Of a DNA stretch of 64,000 bases, positions 50,793 through 64,000 are shown one piece after another. The stretch comes from an uncultured Chloroflexales bacterium (GTDB taxonomy: Bacteria > Chloroflexota > Chloroflexia > Chloroflexales > Chloroflexaceae), in contig CAKZSI010000044.1 of the NCBI GenBank assembly GCA_937918935.1, positions 1-64,000 of the forward strand. Direction: 5' to 3'. The notes under the pieces are model-generated. The model did no database searches. It had not been told where the DNA came from and saw only the letters and a list, made by a program, of their open reading frames with translations. A program made the position numbers and the translations under genes. Positions within the stretch are counted from its first letter, which is position 1. The number at the start of each line of letters is the position of its first letter.

Positions 50793-51758
50793 CTATGCTC
50801 CCAGAGACGTTGCGGCAGTGCTGGGGGTAAGGCGCATGATCCGCTCGGCGATGGTATCGGCGGTCACATCGAGGTAGCTGCGCCCATCCTCGACGTAGCG
50901 TGTCGCGTCGAGGTAACTGCCGCGGCCGGTATGGACCATGGGGCCGAGGCAGACCTTTTCGATTTTGCCCATTGCCAGGGCTTGATTCCACTGCGTGCCG
51001 CGGAAGATCGGCCAGCGGGCGGGGAAAATCAGGTCGCTCAGGTGGTGCCATCGGTCCCTGGTTCCATACAGATGGGTCAGAGCGCTGATCCGGCTGAGGC
51101 TGTCGCTGGAGTTCATGATGCCACCCAGTGAGAACACCTGAACGGGCGCGCGCAGGGTGGCCTGGATGTAGCCCGACGTTCCCAGGGCGATCTGGGCGCC
51201 GCCGCTGTAGCCGAGGAGGGCGACCTGCGAACCGCTGCCCAGGACGTAGCCATGGCGCAGCAACGCCTGAATGATCATTTCCGCCACGCCGTAGTTGTAC
51301 ATCGGTCCGTAGCGCCGGTCGGCGGAAACGGCGACGTGGAGCATGTTGCGCAGGTTGATCAGGCGCCCCACGCGCCGCAAGGGGCTTTTCTTGTTGAGTC
51401 GCAGCGAGTTGAGCCAGGCCCAGAACCAGGCCAGGTTGCCCTCGCTGGTGATACCCACATTGGCAAATGAATAGGCGAAGACATCGGTGACGATGACCAG
51501 GCCGGGGATGCGTTCGGCGATGGCATCCAGGAGCGCATCCTCGAAGGGAGTCGAGAACTCGCCGGAGATGTCATCAACGCCCGAGAGGTACACCAGGAAC
51601 GGCCCGGCAGCAGGCGGGCCGGGTGGCTGCAAGCGGTTTTGCGGTGTAGCCTTGCGCCACCCTGCCCACCAGATCAAGACCGAGAGTGGAATAGCAATCG
51701 CGAAGAGGATGAACAGGATCAGCAGCGCCCAACCCAGCCAGGACAATGCTGTAATCAT
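50793..51758 (-). CDS. Membrane-anchored alpha/beta hydrolase-like protein
   Basis: A 321-aa protein with an N-terminal transmembrane helix (about 5-29, then KATPQN). The soluble region carries an alpha/beta-hydrolase nucleophile elbow GYSGGAQIA (Ser about 203), preceded by LVYLSGVDDISGEF and followed by HLYGTRDRWHHLSD. A C-terminal His (MVHTGRGSY) may complete the triad. Lipase, esterase or peptidase activity is plausible; the substrate is unknown. The start overlaps the YIP1-like stop by ATGA, so the pair is translationally coupled. Confidence 0.72.
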   Translation of the reverse strand: MITALSWLGWALLILFILFAIAIPLSVLIWWAGWRKATPQNRLQPPGPPAAGPFLVYLSGVDDISGEFSTPFEDALLDAIAERIPGLVIVTDVFAYSFANVGITSEGNLAWFWAWLNSLRLNKKSPLRRVGRLINLRNMLHVAVSADRRYGPMYNYGVAEMIIQALLRHGYVLGSGSQVALLGYSGGAQIALGTSGYIQATLRAPVQVFSLGGIMNSSDSLSRISALTHLYGTRDRWHHLSDLIFPARWPIFRGTQWNQALAMGKIEKVCLGPMVHTGRGSYLDATRYVEDGRSYLDVTADTIAERIMRLTPSTAATSLGA

Positions 51759-52363
51759 CGTTCGCCTTTGACCACCGGCTCATAACCGGGAATCACCTGC
51801 GGAAGCTCCTCGCGCCGAACGAGGTGCGGCTTGCCGGTAGTGAGCGCCCAGATGCGACGGGCGACCGCCTCGGCTGGCTCGCTCAACAACCAGCGGGCGC
51901 CCTCCATCAGCAGGGTGCCTGCCAGGGCGCCCACGGCGGCCTGCCAGTGCGTCAGACCGGTAACGGCTACAATTGATGCCAGTGCAATGCTGAAGCTCCA
52001 CAGCCGCAGCCCCCAGCGAATGGCCGGGCCTACCAGTGGGAGCAGCGCCAGCGCGCCCAGCAGTAATGGACCGTAGGCGGTGCTCACGGTGACGAAGAAC
52101 AGGCGCAGGGGCACCTCGACGCCGAACAGCGCGCGCATCGCCAGCCAGAGCGTCCACATCCAGATGACGGCGCTCAGGACATACAACAGGGCCGAGGCGA
52201 GTAGGCCCATCGCGAAGCGCAGAGGTGTGATGCGGCTCATCAGCAGCGTCACGCCCTGTGTGCCAACGCCCTCGGAAAGTCCGGCGAGGAAGATCAACAG
52301 GGTCGCTGCGGCGATAGCCTGAGGCGAGAGGAGGACGTTCAGCCACTCGATCGGTAGCGTCAT
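51755..52363 (-). CDS. YIP1-family-like membrane protein
   Basis: A 202-aa protein with about five hydrophobic helices, an early S-E-G-V-G-T-Q motif and a long charged C-terminal tail. The layout of repeated helices with Gly/Pro-rich turns resembles YIP1/Yip-domain or DUF1282 proteins, which is a weak assignment. ATG is preceded by AAGGAG, and a TATAAT lies 30 bases upstream. Coupled to the alpha/beta hydrolase gene downstream, suggesting joint function in the membrane. Confidence 0.6.
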   Translation of the reverse strand: MTLPIEWLNVLLSPQAIAAATLLIFLAGLSEGVGTQGVTLLMSRITPLRFAMGLLASALLYVLSAVIWMWTLWLAMRALFGVEVPLRLFFVTVSTAYGPLLLGALALLPLVGPAIRWGLRLWSFSIALASIVAVTGLTHWQAAVGALAGTLLMEGARWLLSEPAEAVARRIWALTTGKPHLVRREELPQVIPGYEPVVKGER

Positions 52364-55481: not shown

Positions 55482-58400
55482 ATGACCGAAAACCCGACCG
55501 GGCAGCCAGGAACGCCGGTCTTCCGGAGTCCCCTGCACGTGCTGATCATTGACGCCGATCCCGAGCGAAGAGTTCATGTGGCGGCGACCCTGGGGCGCTG
55601 CGAAGGACAGGTCTTCCAGTGGACGTTGTGCGCCGCGGCGGATGAGGCGTTGGCCGTGCTGGAGCAGGCGCTGACGCCGGTTGACGTGCTGCTGATCGAC
55701 CAGCACCTGGCGCCTGGCGCCGATGGCATCGCCCTCCTGCCACAACTGTTGCGCCTCAGCCCCGAGAGCAGCGCGGTCGTCTTTACCGAGGCCGGCGATG
55801 AGGAGGCCGGGCGCCGTGCGCGAGCGGCCGGGGCCTACAGTTATCTTCCCCGGCCCTTCAGCACCGAGGCGCTCCTGCACCTGCTCATCAATCTGAGCGC
55901 CTGGCGCCAGACGCGCGATCAGTTGACCTGGTTCGAAGTGATCAACCGTTTCGCCGAGGATGCGCAGCATTTGTACGCCGCCAGGGCGCTCGAGGGCGTG
56001 ATCGTGCAACGCGGGCTGGAACTGGGCTTTGACCGGGTGCGGCTGTGGGTCAGTTCCGATGGCGGGCAGACGCTCGTCGCCACCGCCTGCGCGGGGCGCG
56101 AACCGCTGGAGCAGTTTCGCGGCCTGCGTCTGCGCGCGTCCGAGTCGCCCTACCTGATGCGTGTGGTACAGAGCCGCGTGCCGGTGATCTTCCGTGAGCT
56201 GGAGCACGGCAAGACCTGGCTGATGCAGCAGCGCTCCTGTCGGGGCTACGCGCCGCCGGCGGGCGAGTGGGTTGGATTGCCGCTCAGGGCCGGCGACGTG
56301 TTTCGGGGCGCCTTGATGCTCGACCGGCGCCGGGCGACCCCGCTGCGGCAGGATCAGTTGCTGCAACAGGCGTTGATCCTGTTTGCCCGGCAGGTTGGCG
56401 CCGCACTTGAGCGCACCGCGCTGCAGACCGAAACCGAGATCCTCAGCCAGATCGGGCGCCTGGCGGGGGCCGATCCGGCCGAACGCAGCGACCAGGCCTT
56501 GCTCGAAGCGGTGCGCCAGGCCCTCAGCCCGCGGATTGACGTCGAGAACTTTATCGTGGCCATGCGCAGCGAAACCTCGGGCTGGATCGAGTTGCTGCTG
56601 GATGTGAGCGAAGGGGTGCACGGCGAGCGCCGTTCCCTGCCGCCGGGGCGGGGCATGATTCACCAGCATCTGGTTCGCGGCCAGCCCGTGCTCCTGCGAA
56701 CGCCGCAAGAGATCCGCGCCTTTCGCTGGCGGCACGGCGTGGTGCGGCTGGAACGGCGCCTGGTCGCACGAAGCTGGCTGGGGGTGCCTCTGCTCGTCGC
56801 CGGGCGCGCGGTCGGGGCCCTGGTGCTCTTCAGCACGCGGCACGCCGAATGGTTCTCTGAAAACGACCAGCGTTTTTTGGAGGCGGTGGCGGCGCAGATC
56901 GCCGGGCCGCTGCACAACCGGCGCCTGCGTGAAGCGGCGGAATTGACCAACCGTCGCCTGATCTTGATGCAACAGGCCGCGGCGGCGCTGATCGCCATGG
57001 GTGACGATCCTCAGGATGACGATCGTCTCTGGCATGCCGCGCTGACGGTGATCACTGCCGGCTACGGTCTGTGCTACAACCTGGCCGCGTACTTCTCGCT
57101 TCACCGGGGGCGCACCCTGCTGCGCGGGCGCCTCGCCATCGGGCAGGTGACCCTGACCCAGGCCCGGCGCGCCTGGGCCGCCGACGAAGAGCGCGGCCAG
57201 ACTTTTGAGCATTACCTGGAGCAGTTGCGCCAGGGCGCCATCAGGCCCACGGTGCTCGACGGTCTGGTGCGCGGGCTGGAGATCCCTGTCCAGGATGGGA
57301 CAGGCGCCCTCGGGGAGGCGGTGCTCAACCTGGCCTGCGTGCGGGTGCCCGAGAGTGAACTGACGCAGCGTTTTCCTCCGCAGCTCGCTGCCTGCCTGCC
57401 CCCGGCTGACTACGAGGTCGCGCCGGTGATGGTTGCGCGCCGGCGCATTGGTATAGTGATCGTTGCCAATCCCCATTTGCGCCGCCCCCTCGACGATATG
57501 CCTCGCGATCTGCTGACCACCTGGCTCGCCCAGGTGGCGCTGATCTTCGAGACCCGGCGCCAGCGTCGTGCCGGTGAGCAACTGGCCGAGATCAGCCGTG
57601 CCGTCCTGGCGCGCGCCGCCGATCGCCCGCTGCGTGAGACCCTGGAGGAACTGAGCCGTTCGACGCGGGTGTTGATGAGCGCCAGTTGCGCGGCGATCCT
57701 GCCGCTCGAGCCGGGTTCTTCCCTCCGTCAGCCACACGTTGCCGCCAGGCACGCCGCCGGTGATGGCCTCCGCGATCCAGCCTTGCTACAATCCGCATGG
57801 TCTCCCGGTCCAGAGCCATTCATTACCCAGATCCTCGAGGCGCCCGGCCCGTTCGCCGTCGAAAACGCCTACGAACCGCCCTGGACCGTCGCGGACGATC
57901 CCGAACCGGGTTTCGTGGCACGTGAATGGCTCCGCTCGTTCATTGCTGCGCCGATTCTCGATCACCTGAGCGGCGATCCCCGGGGCGTGCTGGTCATCGG
58001 CTATCGCAGTCAGCGGAGTATTGACGAACGTGACCGCAGACTGTCTGGCTCGTTTGCCGAACTGGCCGGACAGGCCATGCGGAACTATGATGAGCGCGCC
58101 TTGTTGGAGCGTGAGCAGGAGGTCTTCGCGACCCTGCTCCAGGACACGCTGCGCCTCAAGCTGGACGCGCCTGACGCTGAGCGCGTCCTCTTCACCCGCA
58201 TTCTCCAGGCGGCCACCAGGCTGCTCAACCGGCCCGATGCGCGTCCCGGTCTAATTCTACGAGGCTGGCAACGACCCGACCGGCCTGGGCAGGCCCGTGC
58301 CATTCGCCAGGAGTATTTTTTGCTTGATGATGAGTTGAAATATGTTCAGGATCTTGACCTCTACCGTGGCATCACCGGACGGGCCTTCGAGACAGGCGAG

Positions 58401-60443
58401 CCGCAACTGGTCCACGATGTCAACGAACCGCCGTGGAACGCGATCTTCTTCGACCGCTTCTCACGCGGGACGCGGGCCGAGCTTGATGTGCTCATCCGCC
58501 TGGAGGACCAGGTGCTCGGGCTGATCAACGTCGAGTCACCGCAGGTCGGCGCGTTCACATCGGCCCACTGCGAGGCCCTCAAGCGGCTTGCCAACATCGT
58601 GGCCCTGGCGATTGACGTCAGCCAGACCCAGCGACAACTGCGCGAGTTGTACAAGGCCGTCGCGCCGATGATCGTCGCCGGCACGCTGCGAACCACTCTC
58701 CAGGCCGTGCTGGAGCAGATCCTGATCCTGGCGCCCAACCTGTCGGCTGTGACCATCTGGTATTGGGATGAGCAGCGGCGGGCGTTGGCACCCGGCGTGA
58801 CCCACGGCGTGCGTCACGAGGCGCACCTGGTGGAGGACCCCCACTTCTCTGAGGAGACGGTGCTGGGCCGGGTGGTGCGCCGGCTCGATCCGCTCTGGGC
58901 GGAAGACGCCCGCGCCGAGCCGATGCTCGATGGCCGGTTCGTGCATGAAGAGGACGTGGCTGCCTGTGTCGCCTTTCCCTTGCAAATTGGAGAAACCCCC
59001 AGTGATGATGAGCCGGTGGGTATGCCGATCTGGCTGCCGCCGTTTCCTGATGGGCGGCAACGCCGGGTGATCGGCGTACTCTTTCTGGTCTACCGGCAAC
59101 CCCATCGCTTCACTCGCCGAGAGCGGGTCATTCTGCCGATTGTGGCCAGCGTCGTTGCGGCGTGCATTCGTGATGCCTTCCACGTTGAGCGGCTCGCTGC
59201 GCGCCAGAGGCAGTTGCAGGCCGCCACCGATCTGGCCAGGGCCGTGCTCGAAGCTACCCTCGACCTCGATGAGACCCTGCGGCGCATGCTTGCTATCTTG
59301 CGCGATCTGATCCAGAACGAGCATCGCCGTCTGGGTCTGAGCGTGCTGCTGGCCGACGAAACCGAGCAGCACCTTAGTTTTACCCCCGCCTCGCGCGAGT
59401 TTTACCACTGGGAGTTTGTGGTCGAACGGCAAATCTTTCCCATTTACCCACCGCCCAATGGCGCCGATCCCCAGCCGGGCACGATTGCTGCGCGAGTGGC
59501 CCGCAAGGCCAGGGAGCAGCGCAGGGCCATCCTTGAGACCGTCAACGATGTGCGGGACGACCCGGACTACGTGCAGGCCAACCCGCGCACCCTGGCCCAG
59601 TTGACGATGGCATTGCTCAATCCTGAACACGATCATTCCGAACCCAGGTTGTTGGGTGTGCTGGTCATCGAAACCGATCGCACGAACGCCTTCTCGTTTG
59701 CCGATGAGCAGTTGATCGAGCGGCTGGCGCCAACGATCAGTCTCGCGATTGCCCGGGCGCGCGAGAACCGGGAGCGTCGTTTCAGCGAGTCGGTGGCCGC
59801 GATGACTGCCTGGGCCAGTCAGATCGCCCACGACATTGACCATGTGATCAGTGGGGCCAACAACGCGATCTACTGGCTGACCAAGACGGCCGAGCCCGAG
59901 CAGATGATGCACATCACGCGCATCAGCCAGAGCCTCGGCGAGATCAGGCGCCTGGCCCGCGCCTCCGACCAGCCTTCCTGTGAGCCGCCCTACGACATTG
60001 GCGCCTGGCTGCGGGAGCATGTGCCGCAGATCATCAAGCGGCGCGCCGGCGCCCCGGTGATGGTAACGTACATGCTGTCAGCCGAAGTGCTGCTGGTGCG
60101 GGCGAATGAAATCCTCCTCGAACGTGTGATGGAACACCTTATTCGCAACGCGCGACAGGCCAGACCGCGCGATTGCAGTATTGCCGTCACCACGGCGCGC
60201 GAGGGGGCCTTTGTCCGCATCACGGTCGCCAACGATGGCCCGTCGATCCCTCCCGAGGTGCAACAGCGCCTCTTCGTGGAGCCCATCCGGCGCGAGCAGC
60301 GTGTCACCGAAGGCGGGCGTGGCCTGCTTCTGGCCCGTTCAATGATGAAGACCCTGGGCGGCGAGATGGCCCTGGTCAGTCCGATTTCGCCGGTGACGTT
60401 CGCCCTCCGGCTCCCCCTGGCGAAACCGGATGATCCGCAGTGA
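55482..60443 (+). CDS. Giant REC / multi-GAF / HATPase signalling protein
   Basis: A 1653-aa cytosolic sensor. Residues about 19-135 form a receiver domain: acceptor Asp73 is kept, but the invariant Lys is Arg124 (LPRPF). Next comes an array of some seven GAF-like modules to about 1440. Segments such as SWLGVPLLVAGRAVGALVLFS, GVLVIGYRS, QVLGLINVESPQVGAFTS and RLLGVLVIETDRTNAFSF mark module ends. A short HisKA-like helix has His1450 (QIAHDID), and a C-terminal HATPase has N-box N1556 (RNARQA), NDGPSI and GGRGLLLAR. No transmembrane helix, so signals are soluble. ATG has AAAGGA. The receiver-kinase gene follows. Phosphoryl flow is not evident from sequence. Confidence 0.85.
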   Translation: MTENPTGQPGTPVFRSPLHVLIIDADPERRVHVAATLGRCEGQVFQWTLCAAADEALAVLEQALTPVDVLLIDQHLAPGADGIALLPQLLRLSPESSAVVFTEAGDEEAGRRARAAGAYSYLPRPFSTEALLHLLINLSAWRQTRDQLTWFEVINRFAEDAQHLYAARALEGVIVQRGLELGFDRVRLWVSSDGGQTLVATACAGREPLEQFRGLRLRASESPYLMRVVQSRVPVIFRELEHGKTWLMQQRSCRGYAPPAGEWVGLPLRAGDVFRGALMLDRRRATPLRQDQLLQQALILFARQVGAALERTALQTETEILSQIGRLAGADPAERSDQALLEAVRQALSPRIDVENFIVAMRSETSGWIELLLDVSEGVHGERRSLPPGRGMIHQHLVRGQPVLLRTPQEIRAFRWRHGVVRLERRLVARSWLGVPLLVAGRAVGALVLFSTRHAEWFSENDQRFLEAVAAQIAGPLHNRRLREAAELTNRRLILMQQAAAALIAMGDDPQDDDRLWHAALTVITAGYGLCYNLAAYFSLHRGRTLLRGRLAIGQVTLTQARRAWAADEERGQTFEHYLEQLRQGAIRPTVLDGLVRGLEIPVQDGTGALGEAVLNLACVRVPESELTQRFPPQLAACLPPADYEVAPVMVARRRIGIVIVANPHLRRPLDDMPRDLLTTWLAQVALIFETRRQRRAGEQLAEISRAVLARAADRPLRETLEELSRSTRVLMSASCAAILPLEPGSSLRQPHVAARHAAGDGLRDPALLQSAWSPGPEPFITQILEAPGPFAVENAYEPPWTVADDPEPGFVAREWLRSFIAAPILDHLSGDPRGVLVIGYRSQRSIDERDRRLSGSFAELAGQAMRNYDERALLEREQEVFATLLQDTLRLKLDAPDAERVLFTRILQAATRLLNRPDARPGLILRGWQRPDRPGQARAIRQEYFLLDDELKYVQDLDLYRGITGRAFETGEPQLVHDVNEPPWNAIFFDRFSRGTRAELDVLIRLEDQVLGLINVESPQVGAFTSAHCEALKRLANIVALAIDVSQTQRQLRELYKAVAPMIVAGTLRTTLQAVLEQILILAPNLSAVTIWYWDEQRRALAPGVTHGVRHEAHLVEDPHFSEETVLGRVVRRLDPLWAEDARAEPMLDGRFVHEEDVAACVAFPLQIGETPSDDEPVGMPIWLPPFPDGRQRRVIGVLFLVYRQPHRFTRRERVILPIVASVVAACIRDAFHVERLAARQRQLQAATDLARAVLEATLDLDETLRRMLAILRDLIQNEHRRLGLSVLLADETEQHLSFTPASREFYHWEFVVERQIFPIYPPPNGADPQPGTIAARVARKAREQRRAILETVNDVRDDPDYVQANPRTLAQLTMALLNPEHDHSEPRLLGVLVIETDRTNAFSFADEQLIERLAPTISLAIARARENRERRFSESVAAMTAWASQIAHDIDHVISGANNAIYWLTKTAEPEQMMHITRISQSLGEIRRLARASDQPSCEPPYDIGAWLREHVPQIIKRRAGAPVMVTYMLSAEVLLVRANEILLERVMEHLIRNARQARPRDCSIAVTTAREGAFVRITVANDGPSIPPEVQQRLFVEPIRREQRVTEGGRGLLLARSMMKTLGGEMALVSPISPVTFALRLPLAKPDDPQ

Positions 60444-60466
60444 GAGTAAAAGCGCCGCGGGCAAAA

Positions 60467-60576
60467 GCCCTCACAGACTGGTAAGCAGGAGCAGCAACTC
60501 ATGACCCTCGTAGGGCGGAATTCATACCGCCTTCCCGCCCTCACAGACTGGTAAGCAGGAGCAGCAACTCATGACC
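60467..60576 (+). repeat. 40-bp perfect direct repeat carrying a ribosome site and start codon
   Basis: GCCCTCACAGACTGGTAAGC continuing to ATGACC occurs at 60467-60506 and again at 60537-60576, 70 bases apart, with no mismatch. The second copy contains the true start region of the receiver-phosphotransferase gene; the first contains an identical start with a short frame. Confidence 0.95.
60501..60554 (+). CDS. 17-aa upstream ORF (decoy or leader peptide)
   Basis: ATG 60501, with the same GCAGGAGCAGCAACTC ribosome site as the main gene, encodes MTLVGRNSYRLPALTDW then TAA, ending 16 bases before the main ATG. Probably created by the 70-bp duplication. It may modulate translation by ribosome loading or re-initiation. 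Not necessarily a functional peptide. Confidence 0.45.
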   Translation: MTLVGRNSYRLPALTDW

Positions 60577-62259
60577 AGTGCGCCGATTCGGGTGCTGATC
60601 GTTGACAACCTTCCCGAGTTTCGCGCGCAGTACGCCGAGCTGGTGCGCGACTGGGGCTACGAACCGGTGGTGGTAGAAGTTGATGGTGCGGAATTGCCCG
60701 ACCAGGCCCTGCGCCTGGCCGCCGAGCAGCGTTGCCCGATCGCTCTGGTCGATCTGCGTCTGGTCGAAGACCACGACCGAAGCGACATCAGCGGATTGGA
60801 GCTGGTGCGCCGGTTGCCGTACACGAAGGCGATCGTGATCACCGGCTACGACAGCACCCCGATGGTCCGCCTGGCGATCCAGCAGTATGGCGCAGCCTCG
60901 TTCGTGGGGAAGGGCGAGGCGCCGGAGGCGCTTCGCGCGGAACTCAACGCTGTCGCCGATAGCCTGTGCCTGCGCGGGAACGGTCCGGAGGTGCAGTGGC
61001 AGAGCAGTCTTTCCTCAGCGGCGGTGCGCGATGAGATGTTTCCCGATCAGCCGGCTATTCCCGCCGATGAACCCGAGGCGCTCATTCGCTTGCTGTTCAA
61101 GGATAAGCCCTGGGTGCGGCTGACCATGATCACCGCGGGCAACGGCGACTCTGGCACGGAATCGGTCAGCCCATCGGTGAACGCCTCGCTGCGACGCAAA
61201 TCGCGCGTATTCGTCGCCGAAATCGCTGCCGAGCGGGCGCTCCAGGTGGTCAAACTCGCGCGCACCCAGAAAATCGAACGTGAGCGAGAAAACTACCGAC
61301 GCTATGTGGAGGCCGGCAGCGATGCCCTGCGCCGCCCCGAGTTGACCGGCGCCGCGCTGCTCTGGGACATGGGCGCGATCGCCTACCGTCTGGTCGGTTT
61401 CGAGCATCTGGCCGAGGGGAAAGGGCAGGTCTTTGCGCGTTTCTACCGTCGCACCGCCGATCCGGCGACAATAATCGCTCCGCTACGCGATTTTTTCTCC
61501 TATGCCGCCTGGGGCGACTGGTACCGCGGATCGCACGTGCAGGCGTTGCAGGGGACGCTGGTAGATGCCTATGACCGGAGTTGGGATCAGGCGCTCTCGC
61601 GGCTCGAACCGGTCTGGCGCGCCGAACCCCTTGATTGGCGCCTGGATGCGCTTGCCGTAGACCTGCCCCATCCCCGCCGCTGGTTCGTGGAGCATTGGCG
61701 ACGCTGCGAGCAACTCCGCTGGCTACGCCAGGTCATTACCCACGGCGATCTGCACGGCGACAATCTGTTTGTCGATCGGCACACCGCCTGGCCGATCGAC
61801 TTCGAGCGCACCGGCTACGGCCCGCTGCTGCGCGATTTCGTTGAACTGGTGCAGGATGTGACCACTCGTATCGCCGTGCTGCACGCCGAGGAACTGCCGC
61901 TGGTCTACGAACTGGCGGTGGCGCTGTGCGGGCCGCAGGCCCCGCACGAGCCGATGCGGGCGACTCGCGCCATTCTGGCCCACAGCGAGGCGCGTAAATG
62001 CTTCCTGGTGGTGCAGGCGTTGCAAGAGCTTGCCGCGGCGCGTGCGGCTTACGACGACCGGCGCGAGTACCTGTGGGGGCTGCTCTGCAACCATCTGTTT
62101 GTCTCCAGCAAGCTGATGCCGGAGAGCGCCCGCTGGCAGCGCACCATGCTCTTCGCAGCAGTTATCTGCCAGCGCCTTGATCAGTGGGAGGCCGAGGTCT
62201 GGCCGCCCCCCGCCTGGCCGCAGGTGGAGTGGGCCGCGCCCCACCGCGTGGATGGGTAA
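60571..62259 (+). CDS. Receiver domain fused to an APH/protein-kinase-like phosphotransferase
   Basis: A 562-aa two-part protein. Residues 5-130 are a response-regulator receiver: Asp12, acceptor Asp61, Thr91 and Lys114 are in the expected places. Residues about 150-520 form an aminoglycoside-phosphotransferase/protein-kinase-like fold: N-lobe RALQVVKLA with Lys228, helix-C E-N-Y, catalytic loop THGDLHGDN (His391-Asn398) and metal-binding DFE (Asp410). A phosphorylation-controlled kinase output is a rare design for a two-component system. It is preceded by the giant GAF kinase and converges (7-base gap) on a STAND-wHTH gene. Target unknown. The start is set by GCAGGAG. Confidence 0.83.
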   Translation: MTSAPIRVLIVDNLPEFRAQYAELVRDWGYEPVVVEVDGAELPDQALRLAAEQRCPIALVDLRLVEDHDRSDISGLELVRRLPYTKAIVITGYDSTPMVRLAIQQYGAASFVGKGEAPEALRAELNAVADSLCLRGNGPEVQWQSSLSSAAVRDEMFPDQPAIPADEPEALIRLLFKDKPWVRLTMITAGNGDSGTESVSPSVNASLRRKSRVFVAEIAAERALQVVKLARTQKIERERENYRRYVEAGSDALRRPELTGAALLWDMGAIAYRLVGFEHLAEGKGQVFARFYRRTADPATIIAPLRDFFSYAAWGDWYRGSHVQALQGTLVDAYDRSWDQALSRLEPVWRAEPLDWRLDALAVDLPHPRRWFVEHWRRCEQLRWLRQVITHGDLHGDNLFVDRHTAWPIDFERTGYGPLLRDFVELVQDVTTRIAVLHAEELPLVYELAVALCGPQAPHEPMRATRAILAHSEARKCFLVVQALQELAAARAAYDDRREYLWGLLCNHLFVSSKLMPESARWQRTMLFAAVICQRLDQWEAEVWPPPAWPQVEWAAPHRVDG

Positions 62260-62266
62260 GGTTGTG

Positions 62267-63634
62267 CTACCCTTCTTCCAACCGGCCGCGGGCCAGGCGC
62301 ACCCCGACGCCCCGGTGGGTGATCAGGTGGCGTGGGTTGCGCCCGTCATCGCCGATCGAGTCGCGCAGGCGCTTGAGCAGGGTGTCAATCCGTTCGTCGT
62401 TTGCCTCCAGCCGTTCCTCGGGATAGAGTGCGCTCAGGATCTCCTCGCGCGGGCAGACCGCCCCGGCTCGTTCCGCCAGGTAGGCCAGCAGGTTGAACTC
62501 CAGCGGCGGTAACTGTCCTGGCAACAGACGCCCGTCAACCCAGACCCGCCGCTGGCGCCGGCCTACCACGACCCCGTCACTGCTCGCGCCGGGCTGGTTG
62601 CGTACATAGGCGGCGAACACCGCCGAGAAGAGTTGGGGCGGCTCGTCGCGCACCAGTTCGATCAGGCGTAAGTCCGCCAGGGTCTCCTGATCACCGTCGC
62701 TCATGTCCAGCCCGGCGGCCAGATGTCTGACAACCCGCTGTTCATCGGGCGTCAAATCGTTCCAGAGTTTGGCGCATTCCTGAGCCACTTCGGACAGGGT
62801 GGCGATTCGCTCGGACGTCTCGTCGTGCCGCTGTTCGTCCAGCGTCCAGGCAAGCGCCCGGATGAGGGCGGGGTAGCCACCGCTGGCATCAATGACTGCC
62901 CGCGCTAACTCCGGTGTGGGCGTGATGCCGCGGCGTCGGGCGATGCGTTCGAGTATCTCGCGGGCGTCATTCTCGTCGTGCATGCCCAGGCCGAAGGTAT
63001 GCGGCTCGAAGAGCTCCCAGAACGACTCAACGGCGGCCAGGTCGCCCCGGGCCCGCTGGCGCGCGCGGGACAACCGTTCGCGGGTGATTGTCAGGTAGAT
63101 CAGGCGATACTTGAACTCGTCGCGCAGGTAGCGCAAATTGCGAAAGAGGCCCGCGTCAAGCTCGCGCCAGATGTCCTCGAACTGGTCGAAGAGGAGTATG
63201 AGACGTAGCCCCTGGTCCTCGATCAGGCGCCCGCAGATGCGCTCGAGGTAGCGCAGGGCCAGCAGGAGGTTGCCCTCGTTGAGCAGGGTCACGTGGAGCC
63301 GGTCGAGCGGGGCGATCACGTTCTCGGGGAGGTTGCGGCGCTCGGCCTCGCGGATCAGCCGGTGGGCGATCAGTTCAAACACCGCGAACTCGCGTGAGCC
63401 GTCCTGGGCCGCCAGAGCGTTACAATCGATCAGCGCCACCCAGGTGGGCGCGTCGGCGAAGTACTGCCCCTGCACATCCTGGCGCTGCAGAAAGCGGCTG
63501 AGATTGGTCTTGCCGACGCCGCCGGGGCCGACGATCGAACAACACTCACCCGCTCGCAGGCGCGCGGCAACCCGCTGGAGCAAGCTGGCGCGGAAGGTGA
63601 GCGGCTGCGGGGGTATAGCATGCTCGGGAAGCAT
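62267..63634 (-). CDS. STAND-type P-loop ATPase with OmpR-like winged helix
   Basis: A 455-aa protein: N-terminal P-loop NTPase (GPGGVGKTNLS Walker A; LILLFDQFEDI Walker B) with sensor arginines (LTITRERL) and a helical arm resembling STAND/AAA switches (to about residue 320), then a C-terminal OmpR-like winged helix (RVWVDGRLLPG ... FNLLAYLAERAGAVCPREEI ... THRGVGVRL). It is probably an ATP-switched transcription factor. Its ATG overlaps the Nudix stop (TAATG), so the two are coupled. Convergent with the receiver-phosphotransferase gene. Ligand unknown; no repeat sensor domain of the usual TPR type seen. Confidence 0.82.
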   Translation of the reverse strand: MLPEHAIPPQPLTFRASLLQRVAARLRAGECCSIVGPGGVGKTNLSRFLQRQDVQGQYFADAPTWVALIDCNALAAQDGSREFAVFELIAHRLIREAERRNLPENVIAPLDRLHVTLLNEGNLLLALRYLERICGRLIEDQGLRLILLFDQFEDIWRELDAGLFRNLRYLRDEFKYRLIYLTITRERLSRARQRARGDLAAVESFWELFEPHTFGLGMHDENDAREILERIARRRGITPTPELARAVIDASGGYPALIRALAWTLDEQRHDETSERIATLSEVAQECAKLWNDLTPDEQRVVRHLAAGLDMSDGDQETLADLRLIELVRDEPPQLFSAVFAAYVRNQPGASSDGVVVGRRQRRVWVDGRLLPGQLPPLEFNLLAYLAERAGAVCPREEILSALYPEERLEANDERIDTLLKRLRDSIGDDGRNPRHLITHRGVGVRLARGRLEEG

Positions 63635-64000
63635 TATTTCACCTCAAGGAGGGCCGAAGCACTGGCGTGCGGAGCGGGAGCCGGCACATCACAGCCGCGT
63701 CCTGCCAGATCAAGATCAGGACGTTCCAGCAAGGAAAGCAGCGGGCCGGCATCGATCCGCTGGCCATCGGAACCGCGCCCGGCGCGTAGTTCCGCTTCGC
63801 TGAACCAGCGCACGCCCTCGCCGACCGGCGGTTCGTGATGGAGCGTGACGACGAATGGGTAGAAGCGAGTGCGGGTACGCACGCCATAGGTTGGCGAGTC
63901 GCGCACGGCGATCAGCGGGGGCAGGGGGCGCAGGGTGAGATCATTGGGAACGCGGATCCGGCGCAGGCCCAGTTCTTCCTGCAACTCGCGTAGCAGGGTG
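63634..64000 (-). CDS. Nudix hydrolase (truncated by window end)
   Basis: The last 121 or so residues of a Nudix protein; the N-terminus lies beyond position 64000. The end of the Nudix box is visible right at the edge as RELQEELG, which matches R-E-x-x-E-E-x-G. The rest, RIRVPNDLTLRPLPPLIAVR and YPFVVTLHHEPP, gives the second half of the fold, followed by a Pro/Ala tail. Hydrolyses nucleoside diphosphate derivatives. It is translationally coupled to the STAND ATPase (overlap TAATG). The substrate-determining N-terminus is not in this window. Confidence 0.8.
   Translation of the reverse strand, partial: TLLRELQEELGLRRIRVPNDLTLRPLPPLIAVRDSPTYGVRTRTRFYPFVVTLHHEPPVGEGVRWFSEAELRAGRGSDGQRIDAGPLLSLLERPDLDLAGRGCDVPAPAPHASASALLEVK

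Follow-up and report, generated by a model that had tools for sequence, protein, structure and literature searches.

Linkage of a GAF-array histidine kinase, a receiver-TCAD9 protein and a STAND ATPase with an OmpR-type winged helix in Chloroflexota genomes

Orthodox two-component systems combine a histidine kinase, featuring an H-box histidine and a HATPase domain, with a receiver carrying Asp, Thr/Ser and Lys residues and with a terminal OmpR-type winged helix-turn-helix (wHTH) domain, and adjacency of histidine kinase and response regulator genes is common. All of these components were found in a gene cluster at the end of the window, i.e., the whole analyzed stretch of 64,000 nucleotides, which originates from contig C44 of a 4.6 Mb assembly (99.99% complete) of an uncultured Chloroflexales bacterium. 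In contrast to the orthodox arrangement, the receiver and the wHTH domain of the window are located on separate proteins, with a TCAD9/APH domain and a STAND ATPase between them. The cluster comprises genes encoding a GAF-array histidine kinase (GAF-HK), a receiver protein with a TCAD9 domain of the APH superfamily (REC-TCAD9, in searches also REC-APH or P0002), a STAND ATPase with a C-terminal wHTH domain (STAND-wHTH, P0003) and a Nudix hydrolase. The first three genes form a real unit, and its moderately favored function is a two-component pathway whose output is split and depends on ATP, leading from GAF-HK via REC-TCAD9 and STAND-wHTH to transcription.

Known STAND-type transcription regulators include MalT and members of the AfsR/SARP type. 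In these regulators, as in the window protein, a STAND ATPase is joined to a DNA-binding domain, whereas the window protein possesses a C-terminal OmpR-type wHTH, no Pfam TPR, a linkage to a receiver-kinase gene and the archaeal ATPase 2qen as best fold match. TCAD9 (PF19974, Ternary Complex-Associated Domain 9) is linked with vWA-MoxR-VMAP conflict systems in a legend (PMC10910872), and the window domain belongs to the same family, scoring above the curated cut-off. In the accessible parts of an eLife article of 2020 (PMC7159879), active APH-superfamily kinases and receivers appear among the effectors, and no histidine kinase domains are reported among the vWA-associated ones; likewise, the accessible parts of an eLife article of 2021 (PMC8195603) predict receivers acting independently of histidine kinases. 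Unlike the receivers described there, the window TCAD9 is placed directly under a histidine kinase. Assignment of the locus to the vWA-MoxR-VMAP ternary systems was rejected, since no vWA, MoxR or VMAP domain was present among the window neighbors scanned, namely peptidase M3, the products of 50793-51758 and 51755-52363, Nudix, DtxR-type, CobO and CbiM proteins; the CDF transporter and a few small open reading frames (ORFs) were left out, and the rest of the genome was not searched. The preliminary description of this DNA had stated that the combination could not be named. This holds insofar as the literature searched, which contains few subscription papers, yielded no report on REC-APH outputs or on TCAD9 under a dedicated histidine kinase paired with STAND-wHTH; the kinase-like domain itself does have a Pfam name, TCAD9.

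Conserved gene linkage at receiver-TCAD9 loci

Of the 400 Chloroflexota genomes searched at E <= 1e-15, 12 contained a match to the REC-APH profile A1. With P0002 as single query, matches at E <= 1e-5 were obtained in 18 of 61 relatives, many of them being receiver-only matches. In total, 20 receiver-TCAD9 loci were compared. They originate from G000 (the window genome), G002, G003, G004, G016, G032, G005, G011 (two loci), G015 (two ends of one contig), G132, G337, G301 (two loci), G369, G375, G385, G391 and the Anaerolineae metagenome-assembled genome HOT.MB2.30. Loci included in profile A1 or scoring >350 bits with A1 were assigned to the window subtype. In 18 of the 20 loci, the gene directly preceding REC-TCAD9 encodes a GAF-type histidine kinase. 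In G391, two called ORFs, one of them on the opposite strand, lie between both genes, and no histidine kinase gene adjoins L051_3, which encodes a TCAD9-REC-TCAD9 protein and is located where its contig ends.

A STAND gene adjoins REC-TCAD9 in 10 of 17 loci with assembled flanks, corresponding to all ten loci of the window subtype and none of the seven others. The complete set of histidine kinase, REC-TCAD9 and STAND genes was found in G000, G002, G004, G016, G032, G011:C287, G005, HOT.MB2.30, G337 and G132, and the proteins of the last five loci share 26-37% identity with those of the window. Three further subtype loci, G003 and both ends of G015:C147, are cut off by contig ends. In the congener G001, no P0002 match was obtained, and the contig ends beside the flank. 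As a synteny control, the peptidase M3 and CDF transporter genes upstream of the trio were considered. Counterparts with 87-91% identity lie at this position in G002, G003 and G004. In the stretches retrieved for nine other loci, those of G032 and G015 being short on that side, neither gene is matched; within the limits of the contigs, the trio itself is kept there with 25-63% identity. Moreover, when each of the three proteins is compared pairwise across the ten loci, their identities correlate with r values of 0.974, 0.950 and 0.956, which indicates joint inheritance but, since the loci are related by descent, not by itself interaction.

These results also bear on the possibility of a simple two-component system that has an unusual output and an unrelated STAND regulator as neighbor. 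The general frequency of adjacent kinase and regulator genes, the absence of STAND at 7 of 17 loci and its convergent orientation in the window's genus are in line with this explanation. It is nevertheless very unlikely in view of the retention of STAND at all ten testable subtype loci, its co-directional orientation in five divergent ones and the congruent divergence of the proteins.

The situation is different for the Nudix gene. It encodes 319 aa (contig positions 63634-64593) and matches the NUDIX family with E 2e-9 and 38.0 bits, compared to a cut-off of 21.1; by eye, Asp replaces the first Glu of the Nudix box. A relative beside the STAND gene was detected in 3 of 17 stretches searched (G000, G002 and G015), and the contigs of G003 and G016 do not reach the Nudix position. 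On another G015 contig, a Nudix-STAND pair is convergent to a piece matching REC-APH residues 496-558, which is the layout of the window. Based on its occurrence, the Nudix gene was rejected as a core member and represents a local accessory in the window's branch. Accordingly, of the four genes read as one circuit in the preliminary description, the three with long-range synteny remain, and membership of Nudix in it is weak. Rare co-occurrence, named there as an argument against the circuit, was found for Nudix and not for the trio. For the nucleotide signal to which Nudix and STAND were suggested there to respond, evidence was found neither in favor nor against.

Outside Chloroflexota, no REC-TCAD9 was found in viral contigs or in 14 control genomes, and the plasmid search with P0002 gave no match. 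The REC-TCAD9 protein of L105 as query retrieved 74 plasmid records, none with >=80% query coverage; among the 15 matches listed, coverage was 20-36%, located within the first 197 query residues and mainly in the receiver. Since the outside search comprised plasmids, viral contigs and the 14 control genomes, a restriction of REC-TCAD9 to Chloroflexota is not claimed.

Domain architecture and sequence features of the window locus

The following features were annotated at the locus:

55482-60443, + strand: GAF-HK, sensor histidine kinase of 1653 aa with the order REC-(7 GAF-like)-H-box-HATPase; start ATG at 55482 (Pfam)
55539-55883, + strand: N-terminal receiver of GAF-HK, phospho-acceptor candidate Asp73, Arg124 instead of the usual Lys in this genus (Pfam, alignment)
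55893-59958, + strand: seven GAF-like modules of GAF-HK, the first and third under the Pfam cut-off (GAF profiles)
59811-59981, + strand: H-box/dimerization region of GAF-HK with His1450 (alignment)
60105-60419, + strand: HATPase_c of GAF-HK with N-box Asn1556 and G1 box NDGPS (Pfam, alignment)
60467-60576, + strand: two perfect 40-bp copies of the REC-APH leader/start-codon region, 60467-60506 and 60537-60576, with 30 bp containing the palindrome-like GTAGGGCGGAATTCATACCGCC between them
60571-62259, + strand: REC-TCAD9/APH, response regulator of 562 aa whose output domain is phosphotransferase-like (ORF, Pfam, alignment)
60592-60945, + strand: receiver of REC-APH with Asp12, Asp61, Thr91 and Lys114 (Pfam, alignment)
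61225-62076, + strand: TCAD9 domain (APH superfamily) with Lys228, Glu236, HGDLHGDN and DFE (Pfam, alignment)
62267-63634, - strand: STAND-wHTH, STAND ATPase of 455 aa carrying an OmpR/PhoB-type winged helix at its C-terminus (ORF, Pfam, model)
62288-62587, - strand: OmpR-type DNA-binding winged helix, residues 350-449 of the STAND protein (Pfam, model)
62597-63613, - strand: STAND NTPase part with Walker A residues 36-43 and Walker B Asp150 (alignment, model)
63634-64000, - strand: Nudix hydrolase, C-terminal part within the window, gene running to contig position 64593 (profile; optional accessory)

The ORF list and the Pfam profile scan confirmed the domain content given for all four ORFs in the preliminary description, including the convergent REC-APH and STAND genes separated by the 7 bases 62260-62266 and the start overlap of the Nudix and STAND genes (TAATG, with one base common to both).

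In GAF-HK, Pfam domains were assigned to residues 20-134 (REC), to six stretches (GAF) and to residues 1542-1646 (HATPase_c; 45.1 bits, cut-off 26.4), and no Pfam HisKA match was obtained. When the protein was searched in seven pieces, all seven matched a GAF profile at E <= 0.05 and five were above the Pfam cut-off, the remaining ones being the first (E 0.038) and the third (E 0.0027). The profiles thus bear out the earlier count of about seven GAF-like modules besides a receiver and a HATPase in the 1653-aa protein. GAF-HK is likely soluble as judged from its hydropathy; the top window (1.89, residues 433-451) is located within the second GAF. His1450, the putative phosphoacceptor in the H-box, and Asn1556 are conserved in 12 of 12 sequences, as are Asp73 and Thr102 of the receiver. 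Replacement of the receiver Lys by Arg is confined in this alignment to the four members of the window's genus. The G1 box reads NDGPS in the window's genus, NNGPE, NNGPP and NSGPD in G016, G032 and G015, respectively, and the five divergent members have DSGPG or DDGPG there.

For REC-TCAD9, the Pfam scan assigned the receiver to residues 8-125 and yielded matches to TCAD9 (65.9 bits, cut-off 40) and APH (32.5 bits, cut-off 23.2). Among ten aligned sequences, including that of the window, Asp61 and Lys114 of the receiver are invariant and position 91 is Thr or Ser. Furthermore, Lys228, Glu236, His391-Gly-Asp393, Asn398 and Asp410 of the TCAD9 domain are invariant, and hence the Lys228, HGDLHGDN (Asp393/Asn398) and DFE (Asp410) motifs are intact, as had been described. 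Judged by these residues, the ATP pocket and the catalytic residues of TCAD9 are present. An AlphaFold2 model of REC-APH built from four sequences reached a mean predicted local distance difference test (pLDDT) score of 48.2 and was not used. Solved relatives listed for the kinase part comprise only methylthioribose kinase 2olc and the uncharacterized 2pyw.

STAND-wHTH matched NB-ARC and nSTAND1 above the Pfam cut-off as well as Trans_reg_C (residues 374-446, 58.2 bits, cut-off 26.2), and no TPR region was found by Pfam. Residues G36, G41, K42, D150 and R185 are invariant in 13 aligned STAND sequences, and the winged helix also matches VicR, WalR and PhoB. The AlphaFold2 model of this protein (pLDDT 78.2) was usable. 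By Z score, it is most similar to 2qen, an archaeal Walker-type ATPase (Z 18.4, 310 residues), followed by plant NLRs/resistosomes, archaeal Cdc6/Orc1 and CED-4, which are tied at Z about 16-17. Residues 350-449 superimpose on the RstA DNA-binding domain with Z 14.1 and 1.9 A over 97 residues. Foldseek ranked archaeal Orc/Cdc6 on top; since the fold alone cannot tell STAND from Orc, the STAND assignment is derived from the NB-ARC and nSTAND1 profile matches. Screening of the four locus proteins with PADLOC returned only mad8 (E 0.014 over 30 residues of P0003), which is at chance level. At 16 STAND loci apart from TCAD9, no neighbor matched the REC-APH profile (in L148, the STAND frame was missed by the gene caller).

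The intergenic region before REC-APH contains, in each of G002, G003 and G004, another insert-like sequence, except for the last few dozen bases. In the window, the palindrome-like element between the 40-bp copies has three further genome sites at <=3 mismatches, and the duplication yields, by eye, a decoy ATG that opens a frame of 17 codons.

Divergent layouts, fusions and other TCAD9 proteins

In G005, G011, HOT.MB2.30, G337 and G132, all genes share one orientation and follow the order S1-REC-HK, GAF-HK, REC-TCAD9 and STAND, where S1-REC-HK encodes an S1 RNA-binding domain, a receiver and a HATPase. Two further genomes have S1-REC-HK beside GAF-HK, namely G015 and G032, the G032 copy being truncated where the contig stops. 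A search at E <= 1e-40 identified it in four of 37 relatives (three at this locus, and a partial copy at a contig end in G006) and not in the window genome. The window's branch may have lost the S1 kinase and flipped the STAND gene. An RNA- or ribosome-linked input through S1-REC-HK would be unusual. The S1-REC-HK genes are located at:

L042:2783-5080
L108:14578-16824
L107:14049-16232
L052:14873-17146
L053:15894-18230
L050:6136-8355

The STAND gene is present twice in HOT.MB2.30 and G337, and a Band_7/SPFH gene ends the run in both. The Band_7/SPFH genes L042:14398-15285 and L108:5405-6268 are ~58% identical. A DNA polymerase III alpha gene with an intein (Intein_splicing, LAGLIDADG) lies near the locus in G337 (L108:3-5132).

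A receiver, a degenerate TCAD9-like domain and an OmpR-type wHTH are fused in one protein, encoded next to a GAF-HK gene, in G003, G007, G022 and G029 (4 of 61 genomes). G007, G022 and G029 belong to another genus than G003, and their GAF-HKs comprise 2193-2199 aa. The fusions resemble the window locus in domain order and in the GAF-array histidine kinase upstream, and differ from it in being one polypeptide, in the loss of the kinase residues and in having no STAND ATPase in the protein. Comparison of the G003 fusion with the REC-APH profile covered receiver and TCAD9 (hhalign probability 98.9). In the fusions, the Lys region is deleted, HGDLHGDN is changed to LNGAFDSD or VNGAVDLE, and DFE to EFE or EFA. 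Given this degeneration, the TCAD9 domain is retainable without catalytic residues, and catalysis is unlikely in the fused form, which lacks Lys, HGD and DFE. No paralogue of the whole fusion was found in the window genome, which yielded separate REC and wHTH matches only.

The fusions also bear on an alternative close to an idea of the preliminary description, namely that TCAD9 is a metabolite or nucleotide kinase whose product binds the STAND protein as a signal and is cleared by Nudix. APH-superfamily enzymes mostly have small-molecule substrates, methylthioribose kinase 2olc is among the solved relatives listed, and the Nudix and STAND genes overlap in the window. Moreover, low-molecular-weight substrates are suggested for the APH kinases of ternary systems in the accessible part of PMC7159879. 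However, a Nudix relative occurs in only 3 of 17 stretches, and the fused TCAD9-like domain is still kept between receiver and wHTH without its Lys, HGD and DFE. This alternative appears unlikely.

TCAD9 was also found in other contexts. Of ten stretches with receiver-less TCAD9, seven hold TCAD9 above cut-off, and TCAD9 is near STAND in three of the ten, namely beside it (G008, where the neighbor is a STAND-wHTH), one ORF away (G017, where the TCAD9 protein is TCAD9-AAA-TPR) and near a shorter STAND (G350). In G005, a caspase domain (Peptidase_C14, E 8.9e-20) is fused to the C-terminus of the REC-TCAD9 protein (L053:8559-11087). In G011:C635 (L054:3-4530), GAF-HK, REC-TCAD9 and REC-CHAT genes follow in a row. 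A run in G015 (L051:1399-10623) encodes TCAD9-AAA-TPR (1411 aa), an AAA-like protein and the TCAD9-REC-TCAD9 protein, and in G278 (L101:9011-10936) TCAD9 is joined to a Clp N-terminal domain.

Such contexts are relevant for a further explanation, according to which the locus is a conflict or cell-death switch, i.e., a histidine kinase-controlled TCAD9 module of the nucleoside triphosphate-dependent conflict systems, with proteolysis or dormancy rather than routine transcription as output. The caspase domain in G005 and the REC-CHAT protein in G011:C635 fit this explanation, as do the patchy distribution (12 of 400 Chloroflexota genomes), the resemblance of the STAND part to NLRs and CED-4 and the tie of TCAD9 to vWA-MoxR-VMAP in the legend of PMC10910872. 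For the window, it is judged quite unlikely: the neighbors scanned contain no caspase, CHAT, vWA or MoxR domain, no PADLOC family was matched among the four proteins beyond chance level, and the OmpR-type wHTH argues for a transcription output in the window's branch.

Proposed pathway and its significance

In the two-component pathway with split output proposed for the trio, the GAF-array kinase would autophosphorylate at His1450, and the phosphoryl group would be passed on to Asp61 of the REC-TCAD9 receiver. The phosphorylated receiver would then switch the TCAD9/APH domain, which may act on STAND-wHTH via phosphorylation or binding. Finally, the ATP-loaded STAND protein is predicted to oligomerize, so that its OmpR-type winged helices could bind target promoters. 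The step from kinase to receiver follows from known two-component chemistry and the conserved residues, whereas the steps after the receiver are suggested by gene linkage and fusions. Since the kinase retains its H-box and the receiver its Asp, Thr/Ser and Lys, the core is a pair of histidine kinase and response regulator. The statement that the locus does not fit a standard two-component system is thus valid for the output, consisting of TCAD9/APH and a separate STAND-wHTH, and not for the orthodox core. The window pair is read as a split response regulator on account of the fusions in four related genomes, in which an OmpR-type wHTH follows a receiver and a degenerate TCAD9-like domain on a single chain.

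Several results weigh against this pathway. Of the seven loci without STAND beside REC-TCAD9, six belong to family f24, whose members reach <=155 bits with A1 where scored, and one is G011:C635, with REC-CHAT instead. The G132 STAND protein has no wHTH. Conversely, the STAND-wHTH family is wider than the trio, with 12 of 22 matches at E <= 1e-60 in the 400 genomes not located beside a REC-APH match, and the top rank of the linked matches is biased by a search profile built from linked members. Pfam TCAD9 had no match in two fusions scanned, the middle domain being visible by profile comparison only. Furthermore, the P0003 wHTH shares 41% identity with a conventional OmpR-type regulator encoded in the same genome and 32% with the wHTH of the fusion, so that the fusion represents an analogy of layout and not proven descent. 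The G1 box NDGPS and the Arg in place of the receiver Lys make the activity of GAF-HK in the window's genus uncertain, and promoter or terminator signals at the locus did not exceed shuffled expectation.

A more specific version of the pathway is tentative. Here, a receiver-activated APH-fold kinase would phosphorylate, or dock on, an NLR-like STAND protein carrying the DNA-binding half of the regulator, which could provide a thresholded, oligomeric and ATP-driven transcription output, and the degenerate fusion would relay the signal by conformation alone.

If true, the proposed pathway would join histidine kinase phosphorelays and NLR/STAND switches, which are usually treated apart, via a phosphotransferase-like domain. 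TCAD9, met in the literature searched only as a part of conflict systems, would gain a testable input in the receiver, a testable partner in STAND-wHTH and naturally occurring intact and degenerate versions for comparison.

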